DNA of 64,000 nucleotides from contig CABIYX010000012.1 of NCBI GenBank assembly GCA_902363045.1, forward strand, positions 19,809 through 83,808, written 5' to 3'. Positions 40,927 to 50,140 of the stretch are shown piece by piece. Source of the DNA: Clostridiales bacterium (lineage in GTDB: Bacteria > Bacillota > Clostridia > Oscillospirales > Oscillospiraceae). A program made the position numbers and the translations under genes. The notes beneath the pieces are model-generated. The model saw only the letters and a list, made by a program, of their open reading frames with translations. It had not been told where the DNA came from and made no database searches. Position 1 is the stretch's first letter; every line of letters starts with the position of its first letter.

Positions 40927-41829
40927 ATGAGTCATCTCTCTCGATCCAGCTCCGGCAGGTCTGCCGATGATGGAGTTCCTGTCATTCCACTTCCCAATCC
41001 CGGTGAGGGTGGGCCCGTGGACTCCGGCGGCGGCGTCCCCGTGATCCCTCTCCCCAACCCTGGCGAGGGTGGGCCTGTGGACTCCGGCGGCGGCGTCCCC
41101 GTGATCCCCCTCCCCAACCCCGGCGAGGGTGGGCCTGTCTATCCAGGCGGCCAGGGGGGAGGAATTCCCACCGTCCCTGTGTGGCCTGCCGCGGCTCAGG
41201 CCCGCTTTCTCCACGCCGCTTACGGCTATCCCGCCTTTCAGATCCTCATTGACGGCATTCGGGCCGTCCGCTTCCTGGGGAGCGGCAGTCTCACCCCCTA
41301 CCGCCGTCTGCGGGCCGGGTATCATACCGTGTCAGTGGCCGGTCTGGACGGCTACATTTACCTGCAAAAGAGCATCCCCTTCGATGCCGGAAGCGTCTCC
41401 ACCTTAGCCGTCATCCTCCGAACCGGCGGTCTGGAGCTGCTCCAGATCTCAGACCGGTGCTGTCCGCCCACCGGCCGCTATTCCAACCTTCGGGTCAGCA
41501 ACCTGGCCTATTACAGCAATCCCTTGGATGTTCTTCTGGCGGATGGCCGGGTGATCTACGCAGACGTCCGGTTTAAGGAGACCACCAGCTATAAACGCAT
41601 CCGTCCCGGCACATACGAATTCTTCTTTGCCGAGACAAACCTCACTCCCCCGCCCTTTCACGCGGACATTGAGACCCTGGACTCCGCCCTTCTGGGCTCC
41701 ACTCCCCCTGTCAATGTGGTGGCCTCCGACTATGTCGCCGTCTCCAGCCGCACCAACTACACCATTTTCCTCCTTAGTACCGGGACCACCCCGGACGCGG
41801 TCCAGGCGCTGACCACGGCGGACCGGTGA
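40927..41829 (+). CDS. DUF4397 domain protein with three N-terminal 20-residue repeats
   Basis: 300 residues. Residues 16-75 are three tandem 20-residue repeats of the form GVPVIPLPNPGEGGPVDSGG, then a Gly/Pro stretch. The C-terminal 200 residues match DUF4397 (RFLHAAYGYPAFQILIDGIRAV; later VRVSNLAYYSNPLDVLL-like second half). No signal peptide. The AGAAAGGAGG ribosome site at 40880-40889 is 37 bases from the ATG, with a hairpin between. TAGGATAGA at 40862-40870 resembles a mother-cell sigma -10 box, so a spore-surface role is possible but unproven. Confidence 0.78.
   Translation: MSHLSRSSSGRSADDGVPVIPLPNPGEGGPVDSGGGVPVIPLPNPGEGGPVDSGGGVPVIPLPNPGEGGPVYPGGQGGGIPTVPVWPAAAQARFLHAAYGYPAFQILIDGIRAVRFLGSGSLTPYRRLRAGYHTVSVAGLDGYIYLQKSIPFDAGSVSTLAVILRTGGLELLQISDRCCPPTGRYSNLRVSNLAYYSNPLDVLLADGRVIYADVRFKETTSYKRIRPGTYEFFFAETNLTPPPFHADIETLDSALLGSTPPVNVVASDYVAVSSRTNYTIFLLSTGTTPDAVQALTTADR
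40972..41151 (+). repeat. Three 60-base tandem coding repeats
   Basis: Copies at 40972-41031, 41032-41091 and 41092-41151. Copies 2 and 3 are nearly identical; copy 1 has more synonymous changes. They keep the reading frame and encode Pro/Gly-rich units, so length variation by slippage is expected. Confidence 0.9.
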
Positions 41830-41848: not shown

Positions 41849-41915
41849 TTGACATCCTGTCCCCTTCGTGCCATAATATTCGTGTAATTATCGTGATTAA
41901 AACGATAATATCGTT
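41849..41915 (+). promoter_or_regulatory. Ureohydrolase promoter with IclR-type operator
   Basis: TTGACA (41849-41854), 17 bases and CATAAT (41872-41877). Just downstream are ATTATCGT (41887-41894) and the palindrome AAACGAT-AAT-ATCGTT (41900-41915). The same palindrome lies in the promoter of the NRAMP-like gene. Confidence 0.75.
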
Positions 41916-41942
41916 AACTTGAGATAAAGGGGTGTGTTCAAT

Positions 41943-42923
41943 TTGAAAACGGTACCTACCATCTATCAGCCCGGTGTCGTCCCAAATGAAATTTACAGCG
42001 GCGTTCCCTCCTTTATGGGAATGCCTACCGCCAAAACGGCGGAGGAATTGAAGCAGTATGACTTTGCGGTCATGGGTGTGCCCTTCGAGGGCGGCTGCAC
42101 CTATGGCGGCTTCTCCTCCTGTGTGGTGGCCCCCAAGACCATCCGCTCCGTCTCCACCCGCTATGTGGGCTATCTCCCTGACTACGATTTCGATACCTTC
42201 GACTATATGAGCTGCTGCGACTACGGCGACATCCCCATCCAGAACGGCAGCTATGAGTACAGCTTCGCCTCTATGCGGAAGGGGATCGGCGAGATCCTGG
42301 ACGCCGGCTGTGTGCCCATCACCTTCGGCGGCGACCACTCCATCTCCTATCCGCTGATCAGCGAGCTGTGCGCCCGCCACAAGAAGCGCGTGGGTGTGTT
42401 GCATTTCGACGCCCATCTTGACACCATGCCTGCCTTCGGCGATGACCTGTACTCCCGCTGCTCCCCCTTCAACCGTCTGTATGGAGACGAGAACTTCGAC
42501 TCCACGAAGATCGTTCACATCGGCATCCGCGGCCCCCGCAACCACCATCAGGAGCGCATCGAGGCCCAGAAGGCCGGCGCCACTGTGATCACCGCCCGTG
42601 AGATCAAGCTCAACGGCTGGCAGGCCTCCATCCAGAAGGCCATCGACATCGTCAGTAAGGACACCGATGTGATCTACGTCACCGTCTGCTCCGATGTGCT
42701 GGACGCCGCCGCCAATCCCCAGGGCCCCTTCGATCCCTGCGGCCCCACCTCCTTCGAGGTCGCCATGATGCTCCACGAGGCCGGCAAGGCTGGCGCGGGC
42801 GCCTTCGACTTTGTCGAGATCTATCCGGAGACCTGCGGCACCCACCAGTCCGCCCACACGGCCTGCTGGATGGCCCTCTATTTTATGAACGGCGTGGCGC
42901 AGCACCGTTTTGCCAACAAGTAA
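41943..42923 (+). CDS. Arginase/agmatinase-superfamily ureohydrolase with altered metal site
   Basis: 326 residues from TTG 41943, chosen because AAAGGGG at 41926-41932 is too close to the GTG at 41934 (329 residues). The ureohydrolase fold is clear: GGDHS (129-133), DAHLD (156-160) and VEIYPE near the end. The second metal motif, SxDxDxxD in the family, reads TVCSDVLD, so the first Asp is Cys249 while Asp251 is kept. The family hydrolyses guanidino compounds to urea and an amine; the substrate cannot be told. It shares an operator with the NRAMP-like gene. Confidence 0.82.
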   Translation: MKTVPTIYQPGVVPNEIYSGVPSFMGMPTAKTAEELKQYDFAVMGVPFEGGCTYGGFSSCVVAPKTIRSVSTRYVGYLPDYDFDTFDYMSCCDYGDIPIQNGSYEYSFASMRKGIGEILDAGCVPITFGGDHSISYPLISELCARHKKRVGVLHFDAHLDTMPAFGDDLYSRCSPFNRLYGDENFDSTKIVHIGIRGPRNHHQERIEAQKAGATVITAREIKLNGWQASIQKAIDIVSKDTDVIYVTVCSDVLDAAANPQGPFDPCGPTSFEVAMMLHEAGKAGAGAFDFVEIYPETCGTHQSAHTACWMALYFMNGVAQHRFANK

Positions 42924-42952
42924 CACCCGTACTTTTTCCCCTCTCTTTCTAT

Positions 42953-42988
42953 AAAAATGGGACCGCCCACCGGGCGGTCCCATTTTTA
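42953..42988. terminator. Bidirectional terminator, ureohydrolase / IclR
   Basis: AAAAATGGGACCGCC-CACC-GGGCGGTCCCATTTTT. Confidence 0.94.
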
Positions 42989-43016
42989 TACGCATTCACT
43001 AGCCAAGGCCTTCCAG

Positions 43017-43787
43017 TCACAGCAGCTCCTCCCGGACAAAGGCGGCAAACTCCCGCATAGGCGGAAGGGCCTGCTGCGCCACCTCCTGCACCACGGAGGA
43101 GGAGGCTACGATGCTCACCGTTCCATACAGGCTGCCGTTGCCCCGCAGGATGGGCACCGCGATACAGCTGATCCCCACCCCGAACTCGTCAAACTCTGTG
43201 GAGTAGCCCCGCAGGCGGATCTGCTCCAGGTCCGCCTCCAGTTCCTCCCGGGTGGTCATGGTGTGACGGGTATACTTGTTGGGGGCGAAAGTGCGGTAAA
43301 ACGCCTCCCGTCTGGGCTGGTCCATGTAATAGAGCACCAGCTTGCCGGAGGCCGTAGCATTCAGGGTAAACACCGCATTGAGGCGGGTCAGGAAAATATA
43401 GTGGGAATCGATGGGGTTGACCACCTCCACCGCAAAAATATTGTCGTTGCTGATGATCTGCATCCGGGCTGATACCTGAAAGCGGTCGGCGATCAGCTCC
43501 AGGCTCGGACGCACCCGGCTGCGCAGGCGGTCAATGTCGTTGGCCCCGGCCAGGTCCGCCTTCGGCAGGAAGGCCAGTCCCAGCATATAGCAGTTCCCAT
43601 CTGCCACATGCTCCAGGTAGCCGTTGGCCACCAGGGTATTCACCAGCCCCCGGACCGTGTTGATGTTCAGCTCCAGCTTGGCGCTGATCTGCGGCAGCGT
43701 CAGCTTCAGCTCGTGCTCATCGAAGCAGTTGATGATATCGATCGCCCGCTGGACAGATTGAATCACCCGTACCTCTTTCTCAGGCAT
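43017..43787 (-). CDS. IclR family transcriptional regulator
   Basis: 256 residues: an N-terminal winged helix (VIQSVQRAIDIINCFDEHE, then LPQISAKLELNINTVRGLVNTLVANGYL) and a C-terminal GAF-like effector domain (about 85-250). IclR proteins bind palindromes near promoters and respond to small metabolites. It lies between the ureohydrolase and the NRAMP-like gene, both of which carry the AAACGAT-N3-ATCGTT palindrome, so it is the likely regulator of both. GAGGGAT precedes the ATG. Confidence 0.93.
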   Translation of the reverse strand: MPEKEVRVIQSVQRAIDIINCFDEHELKLTLPQISAKLELNINTVRGLVNTLVANGYLEHVADGNCYMLGLAFLPKADLAGANDIDRLRSRVRPSLELIADRFQVSARMQIISNDNIFAVEVVNPIDSHYIFLTRLNAVFTLNATASGKLVLYYMDQPRREAFYRTFAPNKYTRHTMTTREELEADLEQIRLRGYSTEFDEFGVGISCIAVPILRGNGSLYGTVSIVASSSVVQEVAQQALPPMREFAAFVREELL

Positions 43788-43853
43788 TTCGGATCCCTCG
43801 CAATCTCGGTTAGACCCATTGGTAAACCACCAGGTACAGGTCCTTTTTTGTGT

Positions 43854-43882
43854 ATTTTACAATAATTTCTTGCTCACGGCAA
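43854..43882 (-). promoter_or_regulatory. Promoter of the IclR gene
   Basis: TTGCCG (43882-43877), 17 bases and TAAAAT (43859-43854) on the minus strand. I do not see the AAACGAT palindrome here. Confidence 0.55.
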
Positions 43883-43940
43883 TAGTTTTTCCAATCTCTT
43901 GTTAAGATTCACATTTTTCTTCTTCCTCTCTCTTTTTTTC

Positions 43941-44003
43941 TTGACAATCTGCCCCCCTCCCATTATAATGATAATATAGTTTTTGAAACGATATTATCGT
44001 TTC
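43941..44003 (+). promoter_or_regulatory. Promoter and IclR-type operator of the NRAMP-like gene
   Basis: A consensus TTGACA (43941-43946), 17 bases and TATAAT (43964-43969), followed at about +10 by the perfect palindrome GAAACGAT-ATT-ATCGTTTC (43985-44003). Confidence 0.8.
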
Positions 44004-44080
44004 AAGTGTGAGTGGAAAGAAGCGTGAACAGAGCAGGACCGGGGCCGCCCGGTCAATCAAAAATTAAGGTGGGGATCTCT

Positions 44081-45301
44081 ATGGAAATCAAAGACCGGTA
44101 CACACTGAAGGACAAGCTGAAGGCAATGGGCCCCGGTATTCTGGTCGTCGGCTCCTTCATTGGTCCAGGTACTGTCACCAGCGCCACAAAAGCCGGTGCG
44201 GGCTATGGCTACGCGCTGCTGTGGACAGTGGTATTCTCTGTCATCGCCGTCATCGTCATGCAGGAGATGGCCGCCCGGCTGGGTATCGTAACCCAGAACG
44301 GACTGGCTGAGGAGCTGGTCAAGGACCTGTCCGACCGTCCCCCCCTGAAATGGCTCATGGTGGCTCTGGTTGCGGCCGCGATCACGCTGGGCGGATTTGC
44401 ATACATGGGCGGCGACCTCACCGGCACCGCCATCGGTCTCTCCGCCATCACCGGGATCCCCTCCAACATCATCGCCCCCATTTGGGGCTGCTGCATCCTG
44501 GTGATCATCAACATCGGCGACGCGGTCAAGTCCTTGGAAAAGCTGCTGTCCGTCTGTGTCTCCATAATGGCCATCGTGTTTGTTGTGACCATGATCGTGG
44601 TCAAGCCTGACCTGGGCGCAATGCTTGCGGGCGCGTTTCCCACCGTTCCCGAGGGATCTATTATGACCTGCGTCTCCCTCATCGGCACCACCGTCGTCCC
44701 CTATAATATGTTCATCCACGCCACCTCCTCCCGCAAGACCTGGCACGACCCCAAGCAGCTCCCCCTGGCCCGGTTCGACACCACCGTTTCCATGATCATT
44801 GGCGGCCTGATCACCGGCTCCGTGATGATCACCGCCGGTACTGTGATGCGCGGTATGGAGGTCAACTCCGCCATTGATATGGCGGTCCAGCTGGAGCCAA
44901 CTCTGGGCAGCTTCTCCGTGCCCTTCCTGGCCATGGGCCTGATCGCCGCCGGGATCTCCTCTGCGGTCATCACTCCTCTGGGTGTGTCCTATGTTCTGGC
45001 CGGTCTGTTTGGCTGGGAGATGAACAAAAAGGATAAGCGCTTCTTCTGGACGAACATTGCCGTGGTCGTGGCCGGCATCATCGTGGCCGCCACCGGCTTC
45101 AACCCCATTTGGATCATCATGACCGCCCAGGCCGTCAACGGCATCTTCCTCCCCATTATCGTGTTTACCCTAGTCTATGTGACCAGCCGCAGCCGCGTTA
45201 TGGGCCAGTACAAGAACAACATGATCCAGAATGTGCTGGGCGCCGCGGTGTTCCTGATCTCTCTGGTTATCGGCATCAACAGCCTGACTTCCCTCTTCTG
45301 A
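44081..45301 (+). CDS. NRAMP-family transporter lacking the canonical metal-site residues
   Basis: 406 residues from the ATG at 44081 behind AAGGTGGGG; about 11 membrane helices. The NRAMP fold is visible (GPGILVVGSFIGPGT, AGYGYALLW; TTVVPYNMFIHATSS). The helix-1 DPGN of Mn/Fe transporters is G28-P-G-T31, and the helix-6 MPHN is V206-P-Y-N209, so Asp, Asn and Met ligands are all missing. NRAMP relatives with such changes carry Mg or substrates not yet known. Co-regulation with a ureohydrolase suggests an organic or unusual cation; this is inference. Confidence 0.82.
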   Translation: MEIKDRYTLKDKLKAMGPGILVVGSFIGPGTVTSATKAGAGYGYALLWTVVFSVIAVIVMQEMAARLGIVTQNGLAEELVKDLSDRPPLKWLMVALVAAAITLGGFAYMGGDLTGTAIGLSAITGIPSNIIAPIWGCCILVIINIGDAVKSLEKLLSVCVSIMAIVFVVTMIVVKPDLGAMLAGAFPTVPEGSIMTCVSLIGTTVVPYNMFIHATSSRKTWHDPKQLPLARFDTTVSMIIGGLITGSVMITAGTVMRGMEVNSAIDMAVQLEPTLGSFSVPFLAMGLIAAGISSAVITPLGVSYVLAGLFGWEMNKKDKRFFWTNIAVVVAGIIVAATGFNPIWIIMTAQAVNGIFLPIIVFTLVYVTSRSRVMGQYKNNMIQNVLGAAVFLISLVIGINSLTSLF

Positions 45302-45366: not shown

Positions 45367-45471
45367 ACAGGCACGATGGACAAGCTCCTCCACATCGCAT
45401 ATAATAGAGATATGAGTTGCACCCGGGGACGCGGCGAAGGCCGTATCCCTCACAGAAAGGAATGGAACGTC

Positions 45472-46389
45472 ATGGAAGAACTGTTGGATGCCCTGCTCCG
45501 GGAATGTCAGCCCTACACAGCTCATGGAAAAGTCGCCACCTACATCCCGGAACTGGCCAAGGGCGACCCAAGCGACCTGGGGATCTACGTCCTGCGCAGC
45601 GATGGACGGCACTACCAAGCCGGCTCCTATCGCAAGCACTTTACCATCCAAAGCGTTGTCAAACCGATCCTCCTGCTTCTCGCCCTGTTGGACAACGGCG
45701 AGGAGGTGGTCCGCGCCAAAGTGGGCGTAGAGGCCACCGGAAAGCCCTTTGACGCCATCAATGTGACCGACTCTCCCCTGCTCAGCGCCCACCTGAACCC
45801 CATGGTCAACATGGGCGCCATCGCCATCTGCACCCTGATCCACGGCTCCAGCTATGAGGAGCGCTTCCAGCGGCTGCTCAATTTCACCCGGCAGCTGGCG
45901 GGTAACCCGGAGATCGACCTGGACGAGGCAGTCTACCTCTCTGAAAAGCGCACCGGCAGTAAAAACCGTGCTCTGGCCTTCCTTCTGAAGTCCTATGGAA
46001 TGCTGGAGGACGGTGTGGAGGAGGTGCTGGACTGCTACTTCAAGGCCTGCTCCATCCGGGTAAACAGCAAGGACCTGGCCAATATCGCCTTTGTCCTGGC
46101 CAACCACGGCAAGGCCCTCCAGTCGGACGAGCAGCTCTTCCCGCCGGAATACGCCCGCTATGTCAACGCCATCATGATGACCTGCGGGATGTATGACGGC
46201 TCCGGAGACTTCGCCATCCGGGTGGGCATCCCGGCCAAAAGCGGCGTGGGCGGCGGCATCATGGGAGTCGTCCCCACCCGAATGGGGGTGGGGATCTTCG
46301 CCCCGGCCCTGGATGAGAAGGGCAACAGCGTGGCCGGCATCCAGGTCCTGGAGCGTCTTTCCAGACGGATGTACCTGAGCATTTTCTGA
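45472..46389 (+). CDS. glsA: Glutaminase A
   Basis: 305 residues, beta-lactamase-like fold. The catalytic Ser-X-X-Lys is in IQSVVKPI; NPMVNMGAIAI, SEKRTGSKNRALAFLLKSYGM and PAKSGVGGGIMGVVP are GlsA signatures. It hydrolyses glutamine to glutamate and ammonia. ATG 45472 has AGAAAGGA 11 bases upstream. Next to the glutamate-fermentation cluster, it would supply its substrate. It has no visible IclR-type palindrome. Confidence 0.95.
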   Translation: MEELLDALLRECQPYTAHGKVATYIPELAKGDPSDLGIYVLRSDGRHYQAGSYRKHFTIQSVVKPILLLLALLDNGEEVVRAKVGVEATGKPFDAINVTDSPLLSAHLNPMVNMGAIAICTLIHGSSYEERFQRLLNFTRQLAGNPEIDLDEAVYLSEKRTGSKNRALAFLLKSYGMLEDGVEEVLDCYFKACSIRVNSKDLANIAFVLANHGKALQSDEQLFPPEYARYVNAIMMTCGMYDGSGDFAIRVGIPAKSGVGGGIMGVVPTRMGVGIFAPALDEKGNSVAGIQVLERLSRRMYLSIF

Positions 46390-46508: not shown

Positions 46509-47690
46509 TCAGCCGCCAAACACCTTGATCATGAAACCGGCCGCACAGGCGGAACCGATCACGCCGGCCACGTTGGGACCCATGGCGTGCATGAGCAGGA
46601 AGTTGGAGGGATTCTCCTTCTGACCCTCGACCTGGGAGACACGGGCAGCCATGGGCACAGCGGACACACCGGCAGAGCCGATCAGGGGGTTGACCTTGCC
46701 GCCGGTCACGACGTACATCAGATCGCCCAGCAGCAGGCCGCCGGCGGTGGACAGCAGGAAGGCGGTCAGGCCCAGCGCCACGATACCCAGAGTCTGGGGA
46801 GTCAGGAACTGATCCGCAGTGGCCTTGAAGCCCACAGACAGGCCCAGGGGGATGGTGACGATGTTGATCAGAGCGTTCTGGGCAGTATCGGACAGACGCT
46901 CGGTAACGCCGCACTCACGGAACAGGTTGCCCAGCATGAGCATACCGATCAGAGGAGCGGTATCGGGGATCAGCAGCACCACGAAGATGGTCACAGCGAT
47001 GGGGAAGATGATCTTCTCGGTCTTGGAGACCACACGCAGCTGGCTCATCTTGACCTGACGCATCTTCTTGGTGGTCATCAGGCGCATCAGAGGAGGCTGG
47101 ATCAGGGGGATCAGAGCCATATAGGAGTAAGCCGCAATGGCAATGGCCGGCAGCAGCTCCACAGACAGCTTGGAGGCCGTCAGAATAGCCGTGGGGCCAT
47201 CCGCGCCGCCGATGACGCCGATGGCAGCAGCGTCAGCGGGAGTAAAGCTGATCACGCCGCCGGTGATGGGGCCCAGGACCAGAGCCATCAGGAACGCGGC
47301 GAAGATGCCCAACTGAGCGGCAGCGCCCAGCATCAGGGACATGGGGTTGGCCAGCAGAGGACCGAAGTCGGTCATAGCGCCAATTCCCATAAAGATGATC
47401 GACGGATAGATGGCATACTGGACGCCCTGATAGAGCACCCACATAAAGCCTACCGTACCGCTGTGCGTTACCGGGTCATAGACGGGCTCGGCAAACAGGC
47501 CGGTGACAGGCAGGTTAGCCAGCAGCATACCGAAGGCGATGGGGACCAGCAGCAGGGGCTCAAAGCCCTTGCCGATGCCCAGGTACAGCAGGACGCAGGC
47601 AATGAACAGCATGATGATGGTCTTGATGTCCAGAGCGGCAAAGCCGGAACCCTGTGCAATCTTGGTGACAACTTCAACTAAGAAATCCAT
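46509..47690 (-). CDS. gcdB: Glutaconyl-CoA decarboxylase subunit beta (Na+-translocating)
   Basis: 393 residues, polytopic (about 10 helices). The sodium decarboxylase beta signature GVIGGADGPTAILTASKL is intact, including the conserved Asp of the sodium channel. It decarboxylates carboxybiotin and pumps sodium out, turning glutaconyl-CoA decarboxylation into ion-motive force. It is the last gene of the gcdC-gcdD/C-gcdB unit. AGGAGGGG lies upstream of the ATG. Confidence 0.94.
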   Translation of the reverse strand: MDFLVEVVTKIAQGSGFAALDIKTIIMLFIACVLLYLGIGKGFEPLLLVPIAFGMLLANLPVTGLFAEPVYDPVTHSGTVGFMWVLYQGVQYAIYPSIIFMGIGAMTDFGPLLANPMSLMLGAAAQLGIFAAFLMALVLGPITGGVISFTPADAAAIGVIGGADGPTAILTASKLSVELLPAIAIAAYSYMALIPLIQPPLMRLMTTKKMRQVKMSQLRVVSKTEKIIFPIAVTIFVVLLIPDTAPLIGMLMLGNLFRECGVTERLSDTAQNALINIVTIPLGLSVGFKATADQFLTPQTLGIVALGLTAFLLSTAGGLLLGDLMYVVTGGKVNPLIGSAGVSAVPMAARVSQVEGQKENPSNFLLMHAMGPNVAGVIGSACAAGFMIKVFGG

Positions 47691-47705
47691 ACTTTACCCC
47701 TCCTT

Positions 47706-48377
47706 TCAACCGATGGTGACCAGAAGGTCATCGGTGTTCACAGTGGCGCCTACATTGACGGCCACAGACTTGACGGTGCCGTCCACGGGAGCGGAGACCT
47801 CGATCTCCATCTTCATGGCCTCCAGCACGATCAGCACATCGCCGGCCTTCACAGCCTGGCCAGGCTTGCACTCCACCTTGAAGATGTTGCCGGGCATGGG
47901 GCTGTTCACTGCGGTCTCACCGGCGGCCACAGCGGCGGGAGCCGCGGCAGGGGCGGGGGCCGCAGCGGGAGCGGGCGCCGCAGGCGCAGCGGCAGGAGCC
48001 GGAGCGGCCACGGGAGCGGCAGCCACAGGGGCGGCGGCAGGAGCCGCGCTCACACTGGTAATGCGGAAGGAGTTGGGAGACATCCCGGAGTCCTCCGCAA
48101 TGGCGGCCATCATCACGGCCACCAGCTCGCCCTCATCCACTGCGGGGGCCGCCGGGGCGGCAGCCGGAGCGGGGGCGGCGGCCTTCTTCGCCGCGGGAGC
48201 CGCGGTGGGCTTCTTTCCCTCGATAGTAGCCACGATCTTGGAAATGACCCAAATGACCGCCATCAGCATGGCCAGCATGACGAATACCACCAGCAGGCCG
48301 GAGGCGGCCACCAGCAGAGCCTCGCCGACGCTCAGCGGTTCAAAAGGGTTAATAATCGCTTTCTCAACACTTGGCAT
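47706..48377 (-). CDS. Decarboxylase delta (OadG-like) subunit fused to a biotin carrier domain
   Basis: 223 residues. Residues about 15-50 are an OadG/GcdD-like membrane anchor (EALLVAASGLLVVFVMLAMLMAVIWVISKI), then an Ala/Pro linker (about 55-144) and a biotinyl domain with the acceptor lysine K189 in EAMKM. Separate delta and biotin carrier subunits are usual; here they are one chain. The last 79 residues are 95 percent identical to those of the next biotin carrier. In Clostridium symbiosum two carriers, GcdC1 and GcdC2, are known. I give no symbol because the fusion covers gcdD and a second gcdC. Confidence 0.88.
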   Translation of the reverse strand: MPSVEKAIINPFEPLSVGEALLVAASGLLVVFVMLAMLMAVIWVISKIVATIEGKKPTAAPAAKKAAAPAPAAAPAAPAVDEGELVAVMMAAIAEDSGMSPNSFRITSVSAAPAAAPVAAAPVAAPAPAAAPAAPAPAAAPAPAAAPAAVAAGETAVNSPMPGNIFKVECKPGQAVKAGDVLIVLEAMKMEIEVSAPVDGTVKSVAVNVGATVNTDDLLVTIG

Positions 48378-48634
48378 GGATCATGTCCCCCCTATCAGCC
48401 CAGGGTGACCAGCAGATCGTCCGTGTTCACAGTGGCGCCCACATTGACGGCCACAGACTTGACGGTGCCGTCCACAGGAGCGGAGACCTCGATCTCCATC
48501 TTCATGGCCTCCAGCACGATCAGCACATCGCCGGCCTTCACGCTCTGACCCACAGAGCACTCCACCTTGAAGATGTTACCGGGCATGGGGCTGTTCACCG
48601 CGGTCTCACCGGCGGCGACCGCAGCAGGAGCGGC
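47706..48634 (-). repeat. Duplicated biotinyl-domain coding sequence
   Basis: Bases 47706-47945 and 48395-48634 encode the same 79 residues with 4 changes, and the DNA is nearly identical as well, including synonymous positions. This indicates a recent duplication or gene conversion between the two carriers. Confidence 0.85.
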
Positions 48635-48814
48635 AGCGGGAGCGGCAGGAGCAGCGGCGGGAGCGGGGGCAGCGGCGGGAGCGGGAGCTGCCACGGGCGC
48701 GGCGGCCACAGGAGCGGCAGCTACGGGGGCGGCAACAGCAGCAGGAGCAGCGGCGCCGGTCTTCTCCACGGTCACGCTGTACACCTTACCGTTGACGGTC
48801 ACATTGTAGTTCAT
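48395..48814 (-). CDS. gcdC: Glutaconyl-CoA decarboxylase biotin carrier subunit (gamma)
   Basis: 139 residues: a short N-terminal beta segment (NYNVTVNGKVYSVTVEK), an Ala/Pro linker of about 40 residues, and a biotinyl domain with K105 in EAMKM. It shuttles carboxybiotin from GcdA to GcdB. The linker would let it swing between the two. It is first in a unit with its own promoter at 48937-48966, 17 bases before the fused delta gene. Confidence 0.93.
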   Translation of the reverse strand: MNYNVTVNGKVYSVTVEKTGAAAPAAVAAPVAAAPVAAAPVAAPAPAAAPAPAAAPAAPAAAPAAVAAGETAVNSPMPGNIFKVECSVGQSVKAGDVLIVLEAMKMEIEVSAPVDGTVKSVAVNVGATVNTDDLLVTLG

Positions 48815-48890
48815 AGTTGTTTTCCCCTTTTCTCAAAAATATGGCTTCATGTCCTTCCGACCGGATCGGCCGCCGGACGTTTGCCACGAT

Positions 48891-48966
48891 TCCCCACCTG
48901 TCATTTTTGCTCAGGTGGGGAACCGAAATTGGGTTCATTGTATCATTTTTGCAGGATAACTGTCAA
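48891..48966 (-). promoter_or_regulatory. Promoter and 5' leader hairpin of gcdC-gcdD/C-gcdB
   Basis: TTGACA (48966-48961), 18 bases and TACAAT (48942-48937), starting about 40 bases after the hgdB stop. TTCCCCACCTG / CAGGTGGGGAA (48891-48922) forms a leader stem near the transcript 5' end without a T run, so it is not a terminator and may stabilise the mRNA. Confidence 0.7.
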
Positions 48967-49003
48967 GAATCTCCGCAGATTTTTTATCCTGCCGGCTTAC
49001 CCC

Positions 49004-50140
49004 TTACAGGACATCCGCAAACGCCTGGATGGCGGTGCTGGCCTGACCAAAGTCCCGCATCTGCTGATCCACACCCAGCTTGATGTGGGGAATATCGGCG
49101 GCGTCCAGCGCCTTCTTCAGGTAGGGATACTCCATCTCCTCCGGGTCGCAGAACTGCTGCATGAACAGCACCAGGCCCTGAGCGCCGGACTTCTTGATCT
49201 TATCCACCACAAAGTCGGCGCGGCGGTTCTGCTCAGAGTGCTCATCATAGAGGAGGATGTCATAATCCTGGTCGGCAAACTGCTGGGCCAGGGCCATCAT
49301 GGGATCGCCCTCCTCGCTGGCGTCCACACGGAAGGAACGGCTCTCCTGGGCCACATCGTCAGCGGCGATGGCGATCTTGTTGTCGTCGAAGATCTGCAGC
49401 AGCTTGGGATTGTCGCAGATGATGCCGGAGGTGACGATCTTCTTGCCCTTCCAATCGGCGGCGGGCAGCTTAGCCAGCTCGGCGTTCAGGACCTCCAGCT
49501 TCTCCGCATAGGCGGCGGGCTCCATGAACCAGGCGGCACGCAGCACGGCGGAGCGCTTCACAGCGGAGACCACATCGCAGTGCTCGTTGGCCAGCTGCAC
49601 GAAGGCGCGGCGGGCGGCGCGGTTCTTGTTCATCACCTTGATGGCGGCGCGCAGGTCGTCATCAGTGATGGTCTTGCCGGCAATCTTCTCCAGCTCAGTC
49701 TTGATGTGCTGATACTGATCCATAGTGAACTGCAGGCCGAAAGCGGGCTTGCGCTGCTGAGGATGGGCCAGGAAGATGCAGGGCAGCTTGCCCTCCATGG
49801 CCACGCGGAAGTTCTGGCTCATGGGACGCAGGGTGTCGCAGATGGTGGGAGTGATGAGGCCGTCCAGCTGATCCAGGGTGCCATCCAGCAGCATCTCCAG
49901 GGCCAGCTGAGCGATGGTGCAATAGAAGGTGGCGCAGTACTCCTTGGCATGGGCGATGGTCTTCTTGTTGCTGCCCCAGATGCCCATGGGAACCATACCT
50001 GCAGCGACTACCAGCTCCACAGGAGCGTAGTAGGGCAGCACGCCGATGACCTTCTTACCTTCCTTCTTGTACTGAGAGAGGATCCGGTAAGGATGCTCGG
50101 AAATCTCCGCAAACTCGTTCAGAAAAACTTCGGTGCTCAT
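49004..50140 (-). CDS. hgdB: 2-hydroxyglutaryl-CoA dehydratase subunit beta (HgdB/HgdD type)
   Basis: 378 residues, the 2-hydroxyacyl-CoA dehydratase D-component family. It holds one [4Fe-4S] cluster; cysteines in TPTICDTLRP, GIICDNP and MQQFCDPEE contexts fit. With HgdA it removes water from 2-hydroxyglutaryl-CoA to give glutaconyl-CoA after one-electron activation by HgdC. It overlaps hgdA by 4 bases. Confidence 0.93.
   Translation of the reverse strand: MSTEVFLNEFAEISEHPYRILSQYKKEGKKVIGVLPYYAPVELVVAAGMVPMGIWGSNKKTIAHAKEYCATFYCTIAQLALEMLLDGTLDQLDGLITPTICDTLRPMSQNFRVAMEGKLPCIFLAHPQQRKPAFGLQFTMDQYQHIKTELEKIAGKTITDDDLRAAIKVMNKNRAARRAFVQLANEHCDVVSAVKRSAVLRAAWFMEPAAYAEKLEVLNAELAKLPAADWKGKKIVTSGIICDNPKLLQIFDDNKIAIAADDVAQESRSFRVDASEEGDPMMALAQQFADQDYDILLYDEHSEQNRRADFVVDKIKKSGAQGLVLFMQQFCDPEEMEYPYLKKALDAADIPHIKLGVDQQMRDFGQASTAIQAFADVL

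Follow-up and report, generated by a model that had tools for sequence, protein, structure and literature searches.

Two described bacterial gene sets, pxpTABC with its regulator PxpR in Corynebacterium glutamicum and ycsFG-kipIA-kipR in Bacillus subtilis, place an NRAMP-fold transporter beside a set of C-N hydrolases and a dedicated regulator, which in the Bacillus set is KipR, presumably a member of the IclR family. A comparable arrangement occurs in a 64,000-nucleotide stretch of the genome of a gut bacterium of the Clostridiales (assembly GCA_902363045.1, contig CABIYX010000012.1, positions 19,809 to 83,808 of the forward strand; hereafter the window, whose numbering we use unless another genome is named). 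Here, a gene for an IclR-family regulator of 256 aa (43017-43787, minus strand) lies between genes for a hydrolase of the arginase/ureohydrolase fold (41943-42923, plus strand) and an NRAMP-fold transporter of the YcsG/PxpT type (44081-45301, plus strand), the three proteins bearing the Pfam names HTH_IclR/IclR_C, Arginase, and Nramp, respectively. PxpR represses its operon and binds 5-oxoproline (PMC13274462); it belongs to the GntR family, whereas the window regulator is an IclR protein, and, in contrast with the pxp and ycs systems, the window enzyme has an arginase fold and is not an ATP-dependent 5-oxoprolinase. Operators of the IclR family are known as tandem sites 18-22 bp apart and as W3-spaced palindromes (Suvorova and Gelfand 2021, PMC8222616), although the main text of that survey contains neither “Nramp” nor “ureohydrolase”. 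Among open-licence papers, we found none combining IclR with NRAMP and a ureohydrolase or agmatinase; a study of Salmonella IclR (PMC12445098), in passages of which NRAMP designates mouse genotypes, was discarded. With high probability, the window locus holds a real regulon of a known kind, small in extent (two promoters by exact pattern), and what is new is the set of genes that it controls.

The transporter gene is preceded by a promoter matching the consensus at 12/12 positions (TTGACA-17-TATAAT, 43941-43969, plus strand), the top of nine promoter-like matches between 41700 and 45500 (shuffled mean 2.1), and the hydrolase gene by one matching at 11/12 (TTGACA-17-CATAAT, 41849-41877, plus strand), which ranks joint second in the same interval with a promoter-like site of the glutaminase gene. 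Just downstream of both, as an earlier note on this DNA had reported, the same palindrome is found, AAACGAT-AAT-ATCGTT at 41900-41915 and GAAACGAT-ATT-ATCGTTTC at 43985-44003, with the iclR gene indeed lying between the two sites on the opposite strand; the perfect 8-base arms that it described at the second site are present and actually extend to 10 bases (43983-44005). The pattern common to both promoters is AACGAT-W3-ATCGTT, and each main box has a second box exactly 20 bp upstream, a spacing within the 18-22 bp seen for IclR tandem sites near the regulator's own gene. At the transporter promoter, the main box (AACGATATTATCGTT, 43987-44001) would occupy about +12 to +26 and the upstream box (AATGATAATATAGTT, 43967-43981), with two mismatches to AACGATNNNATCGTT, overlaps the -10 element. 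At the hydrolase promoter, the main box (AACGATAATATCGTT, 41901-41915) would lie at about +18 to +32 and an upstream half-site (TAATTATCGT, 41885-41894, plus strand, in the register 41881-41895) falls at the expected start, all these positions being relative to a +1 assumed about 7 nt past the -10. The ATTATCGT of this half-site and the ACGATAAT of the main box are perfect inverted repeats of each other over 8 bases, which makes a three-half-site arrangement. These features (a palindrome of 15-17 bp with a 3-nt A/T centre, tandem boxes 20 bp apart, and three half-sites at the hydrolase promoter) resemble group 1, of the WTT-11-AAW type, in PMC8222616. By contrast, the group-1 core YCRY-W3-4-RYGR is not matched, the window and its relatives having YGAY-W3-RTCR with G in the place of C, and the outer bases of the window group are AA and not TT.

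Taken as pairs, the boxes of the transporter promoter span about -9 to +26 and those of the hydrolase promoter about -3 to +32. Since the upstream box covers either the start site or the -10, these predicted tandem operators would suit occlusion of the start site by a pair of dimers and not only a transcriptional roadblock. The earlier note proposed a block at +10 to +30 but left out the upstream boxes and the coverage of the start site or -10. The same geometry bears on the possibility that IclR activates both promoters, or both activates and represses them. Activator sites typically lie at -40 to -60, whereas the boxes sit on the -10 or start and on downstream DNA, and both promoters are near consensus and should need no help. 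We consider activation of either sort improbable, even if the IclR family does include activators and dual regulators (PMC8222616), which weighs against pure repression, and KipR is described as required for manganese induction of the ycsG operon (PMC10448178).

Promoters and boxes stand out clearly from their surroundings in an alignment of five orthologous loci (the window, G001, G026, G027, and G362, representing about three lineages as window/G001 and G027/G362 are near copies). The six columns of the -35 and the six of the -10 are identical at each promoter, as are 15/15 columns of the transporter main box, 13/15 of the hydrolase main box, 10/10 of the hydrolase upstream half-site, and 11 of the 12 columns of the AATGATAATATAGTT box that lie beyond the -10. 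With both promoters pooled, 73 of the 76 columns of these elements are identical versus 94 of 270 elsewhere (30/79 and 64/191 in two stretches), a background from which the ribosome-site stretch before the transporter start codon (16/24 identical) was excluded.

The exact pattern is also specific. In the window, matches without mismatch occur at these two promoters only; up to three mismatches yield 15 matches against 6.2 expected, but these carry little meaning because 2/100 shuffles also reach 15. The nearest genome, G001, which has the same locus and an IclR 99% identical to that of the window, contains two copies of the exact pattern genome-wide, both at these promoters, where the base composition of its 17-kb locus predicts about 0.07; a scan of genome contigs returned a single locus, of Clostridiales bacterium CCNA10, 99% identical. 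In each of the loci of G026 and G027, one copy is exact and another has a single mismatch, and the same holds, at the two promoters, for that of G362, a genome outside the set of 11 genus genomes used for the genome-wide pattern search, so the palindrome is kept in 4/4 other genomes found with this close IclR. Of the eight genus genomes in that set that lack this close IclR, seven are without any exact copy, and the single one in G022 has the non-A/T spacer TAC. Allowing one mismatch in the 11 genomes gives 58 places (2-10 each) compared with 27 (0-6 each) for the reversed pattern, and these matches are mostly background. In G001, G026, and G027, every such match outside the locus has a spacer that includes G or C, and these were rejected as targets for that reason. 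The additional targets suggested by the relaxed searches (up to three mismatches in the window, one in the genomes) were likewise dropped, being only about twice the control, and none was added to the regulon. The cassette itself is patchily distributed, with the transporter at 90% identity or more in 4/64 genus genomes and at 65% in a fifth.

A different regulator might use these palindromes, or the palindromes might work in the leader RNAs as hairpins, IclR being then a bystander; such perfect repeats, once transcribed, can fold, according to a calculation on the sequences themselves. Yet the transporter upstream box overlaps the -10 and is thus incompletely transcribed, for which reason hairpin control was rejected as the leading explanation, and no Rfam family matches the leaders at gathering score, which eliminated a riboswitch or other known RNA. 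The near absence of exact copies in genomes without the close IclR, together with related boxes that track the same IclR clade in six further loci, including some with divergent or reordered genes, makes a bystander role very improbable.

These six distant loci encode an IclR protein (32-38% identity) together with a hydrolase of the same clade as that of the window. Five of them (G129, G765, G784, G840, and G368) also encode the transporter, at 56-65% identity, and in the sixth (G236) Liv-type ABC genes replace it. Locus searches in the six detected no exact copy of the window palindrome, and their cassette intergenic DNA carries related palindromes, such as TTCGATATTGTCAAA in G368. The core GAY-W3-RTC has 10 matches in 2,809 nt of this DNA, with at least one in each locus, compared with a shuffle mean of 0.59 (10 reached in 0/300) and with 10 matches in the other 82,999 nt, an enrichment that is partly post hoc as the Y/R degeneracy was picked after viewing the loci. 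Spacing offers a test that is less so: 10 pairs of relaxed sites lie within 80 nt of each other, five of them exactly 20 bp apart (two in G129 and one each in G840, G368, and G236), whereas shuffles produce on average 0.008 pairs at 20 bp and more than one in 0/500; a pair at 40 bp is the outer pair of a triple in G129.

The window protein is a clear IclR family member (PF09339, 44.5 bits for a cut-off of 22; PF01614, 85.4 bits for a cut-off of 24). The 11 IclR proteins encoded in cassettes, which include near copies, were placed in a tree with 27 others, taken from the genomes of relatives and from transporter loci that lack the hydrolase. Among these 38 proteins, those of the cassettes form one clade with support 98/94, present in 98% of bootstrap trees; L022 yielded no ORF and does not figure in the tree, the sequences of L012 and L026 are incomplete, and the outside rows include several long branches. 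Inside the clade, the members of the window group share the recognition helix N-I-N-T-x-R-G, whereas five relatives have N-K-S-T-x-H-G and G236 has N-I-S-T-V-H-G; the operator differs alongside the helix, with AACGAT in the window group versus TTYGAY in the relatives. This paired change provides a clean natural case for studying DNA recognition by IclR proteins. Family searches that covered 2 genomes around G129 and 41 around G784, and a gene-order search of 7 genomes around G236, yielded no further cassette locus.

Site specificity, conservation in all genomes with the close IclR, and a cognate operator variant in the six distant cassettes make it very likely that, as first proposed, one IclR serves both promoters, and this protein very probably binds the boxes described here. 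Some observations weigh against this reading. The upstream box of the hydrolase promoter is a good half-site only; G784 and G840 have weaker matches; and the candidate promoter of the window iclR gene (TTGCCG-17-TAAAAT, 43854-43882, minus strand, a weak match of 9/12) has no box of its own, whereas several relatives have sites near iclR. A TATTNTACAATA stretch (in plus-strand reading) at this candidate promoter is conserved across the five loci.

The hydrolase belongs to the ureohydrolase (arginase) superfamily by its PF00491 domain and fold. Its gene more likely starts at TTG 41943 than at GTG 41934, the start of the listed open reading frame (ORF), because G026 and G027 carry ATG at the former position. 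Numbered from the GTG, it retains the metal ligands H135, D159, H161, D163, and D254, and the first Asp of the D-x-D motif is replaced by C252. This Cys is found in 20/20 aligned sequences (the window's own cluster included) and in 11/11 cassette or Liv-locus proteins of a second alignment, from which G026, G362, and G368 were left out, while 4/4 readable distant homologues have Asp, the fifth (L045) having been dropped. The clade with C-x-D, whose named sources include Peptoniphilus, Eubacterium, and Oscillospiraceae, is patchily distributed (E ≤ 1e-50 in 4/398 genomes of the phylum). The window protein shows about 25% identity to the guanidine hydrolases (7esr, 9fek), metformin hydrolase (8snf), proclavaminate amidinohydrolase (1gq6), formimidoylglutamase (3m1r), and agmatinase, and it differs from these named ureohydrolases both by the Cys, common to every aligned member of its clade, and by reaching no equivalog cut-off, including that for agmatinase (104.9 of 174.3 bits).

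Were the enzyme a formimidoylglutamase of the histidine pathway, the whole would be a Hut regulon. However, its score for the corresponding equivalog (103.6 of 229.15 bits) is no better than for agmatinase, it has C-x-D instead of D-x-D, and imidazolonepropionase (hutI) is over cut-off in 7/13 hydrolase genomes, being missing from the near-complete G027, G129, G236, and G400; we find this identification doubtful at best. A strict Hut regulon was rejected on that count and a plain 5-oxoproline regulon on the presence of YcsF/PxpA in 9/13 of the same genomes, since with such counts neither pathway tracks the cassette strictly. In G001, a second YcsF/PxpA copy seems to be split over two overlapping pieces (L105 and L106; C1:161368-162077), the whole copy being at 712448-713164.

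In NRAMP transporters, the metal ligands are provided by D-P-G-N in TM1 and M-P-H in TM6. The window transporter is a member of this family (PF01566, 285 bits), but where a solved relative (10ky) has these two motifs it has G-P-G-T and V-P-Y-N. The same pair is found in 17/18 aligned NRAMP-fold proteins (those of the window and G001 included), the remaining one (G395) having G-T-G-T and V-P-Y-N, so the D, N, M, and H ligand positions are substituted in all 18. Among its relatives at 38-45% identity (G001 aside), 10/11 adjoin YcsF-like and PxpC-like genes, in clusters of the 5-oxoprolinase type, G395 being again the exception; the neighbours in G724, for instance, have the Pfam names LamB_YcsF and CT_A_B. 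Besides, the hydrolase relatives in G236, G400, G634, and G731 adjoin genes for Liv-type permeases and ATPases, and no copy of this transporter was found on the stretches of these genomes that were fetched (5.9-19.9 kb). The interchange of NRAMP-fold and Liv-type transporters beside one enzyme set favours an organic substrate, and in C. glutamicum deletion of PxpT, a relative of YcsG, abolished growth on 5-oxoproline, for which PxpT is needed (PMC13274462).

The transporter may instead import manganese or another divalent metal, IclR then coupling metal uptake to a metal-dependent ureohydrolase. Weighing towards this and against organic-substrate transport, the Pfam family is Nramp, and the window protein as well as its G129 relative clears the threshold of the model named “Nramp family divalent metal transporter” (NF037982; for the window protein, 79.9 bits where 50 are required). 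In addition, arginase-fold enzymes in general require metals. PMC10448178 reports B. subtilis YcsG as a manganese importer whose overproduction raised cellular manganese, and renames its gene mntG. Against this stand the substituted ligand positions, scores well short of the MntH models (NF001923, 183.5 of 430 bits; TIGR01197, 113.3 of 272.5 bits), the Liv-type genes in four loci, and the growth defect of the PxpT mutant. Metal supply appears unlikely to us; uptake of an organic substrate is the likelier function, and judging from motifs and gene neighbourhoods this transporter rather probably carries such a compound. The link made in the earlier note between an amidine-type hydrolase and a transporter holds in that the two genes are co-inherited and have the same operator pattern, but its “NRAMP-like” protein is probably no metal transporter.

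From the observed conservation, specificity, tandem spacing, and co-inheritance of regulator, enzyme, and transporter, we infer the following switch, which as a whole we hold with good confidence. IclR would occupy the tandem 15-bp operators of exactly two promoters, each made of AACGAT-W3-ATCGTT and, 20 bp upstream, a weaker box. It would probably bind as two dimers that share one face of the double helix and cover the -10 or start and the first transcribed bases, so keeping both genes off; repression of both promoters is likely. It would be released by a small organic molecule, most likely the compound taken up or a product of it, whereupon the NRAMP-fold importer and the cytoplasmic arginase-fold C-N hydrolase would be produced together; the hydrolase would then open the compound and its nitrogen would enter glutamate metabolism. 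The hydrolase is thus likely tied to an importer of its own substrate, probably an amidine-like nitrogen compound imported by the transporter and split by the enzyme. Such a switch is a well-defined local regulon of the textbook type, and its ligand, once found, would name the substrate of hydrolase and transporter alike. Having two targets only, it offers a handle on two orphan groups, the arginase-fold clade whose metal site is changed and a group of NRAMP-fold proteins that database models label as metal transporters and that are probably carriers of organic compounds.

More tentatively, the cassette may represent an as yet undescribed scavenging route of gut and other Firmicutes, made of an NRAMP-fold carrier of an organic amidine or ureido acid, a Cys-site hydrolase, and an IclR clade whose operator has shifted from TTYGAY to AACGAT along with its recognition helix. 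The Cys metal site would in that case probably mean another metal, or a single metal, and a different substrate. The N-carbamoyl-hydrolase-like M20 and ATC-hydrolase-like proteins encoded in some relatives would then point to a cyclic compound, an amidine or one resembling hydantoin, whose ring is opened on the way to glutamate; both are encoded close by in G236 and G400, with the M20 protein of G236 over the hydantoinase/carbamoylase cut-off. In G368 (L062, 5057-9081), NRAMP-fold, hydrolase, M20 carbamoylase-like, and ATC-hydrolase-like genes are consecutive on one strand and divergent from iclR, a gene row that suggests a fuller pathway than that of the window; the hydrolase there has 62.6% identity and its gene is overlapped by a longer antisense ORF. 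EutA-like proteins are encoded between hydrolase and transporter in G129, G765, G784, and G840, and YcsF, CT_C_D, and CT_A_B genes (pxpABC-like) adjoin the cassette in G784.

Within the window, iclR points towards the hydrolase gene and away from the transporter gene, and a terminator-like bidirectional hairpin (42952-42991), read by eye and absent from the feature scan, separates the convergent pair. The next gene after the transporter encodes glutaminase A (45472-46389, plus strand) and adjoins the transporter gene also in G001, G027, and G362, and iclR in G840. It probably has its own promoter (TGGACA-17-TATAAT, 45377-45405) and was left out of the regulon. Farther downstream are genes for OAD_beta, the beta subunit of a Na+-pumping decarboxylase (46509-47690), and for the D-component of 2-hydroxyglutaryl-CoA dehydratase (49004-50140), with two Ala/Pro-rich biotin-carrier-like ORFs, named by eye, between them; this gene group near the regulon (46509-50140) is likely a glutamate fermentation set. 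On the other side, 40927-41829 encodes a DUF4397 protein with three near-identical N-terminal repeats of the GEGGPVDSGGGVPVIPLPNP type, 300 aa long in the window and 320 aa in G001.

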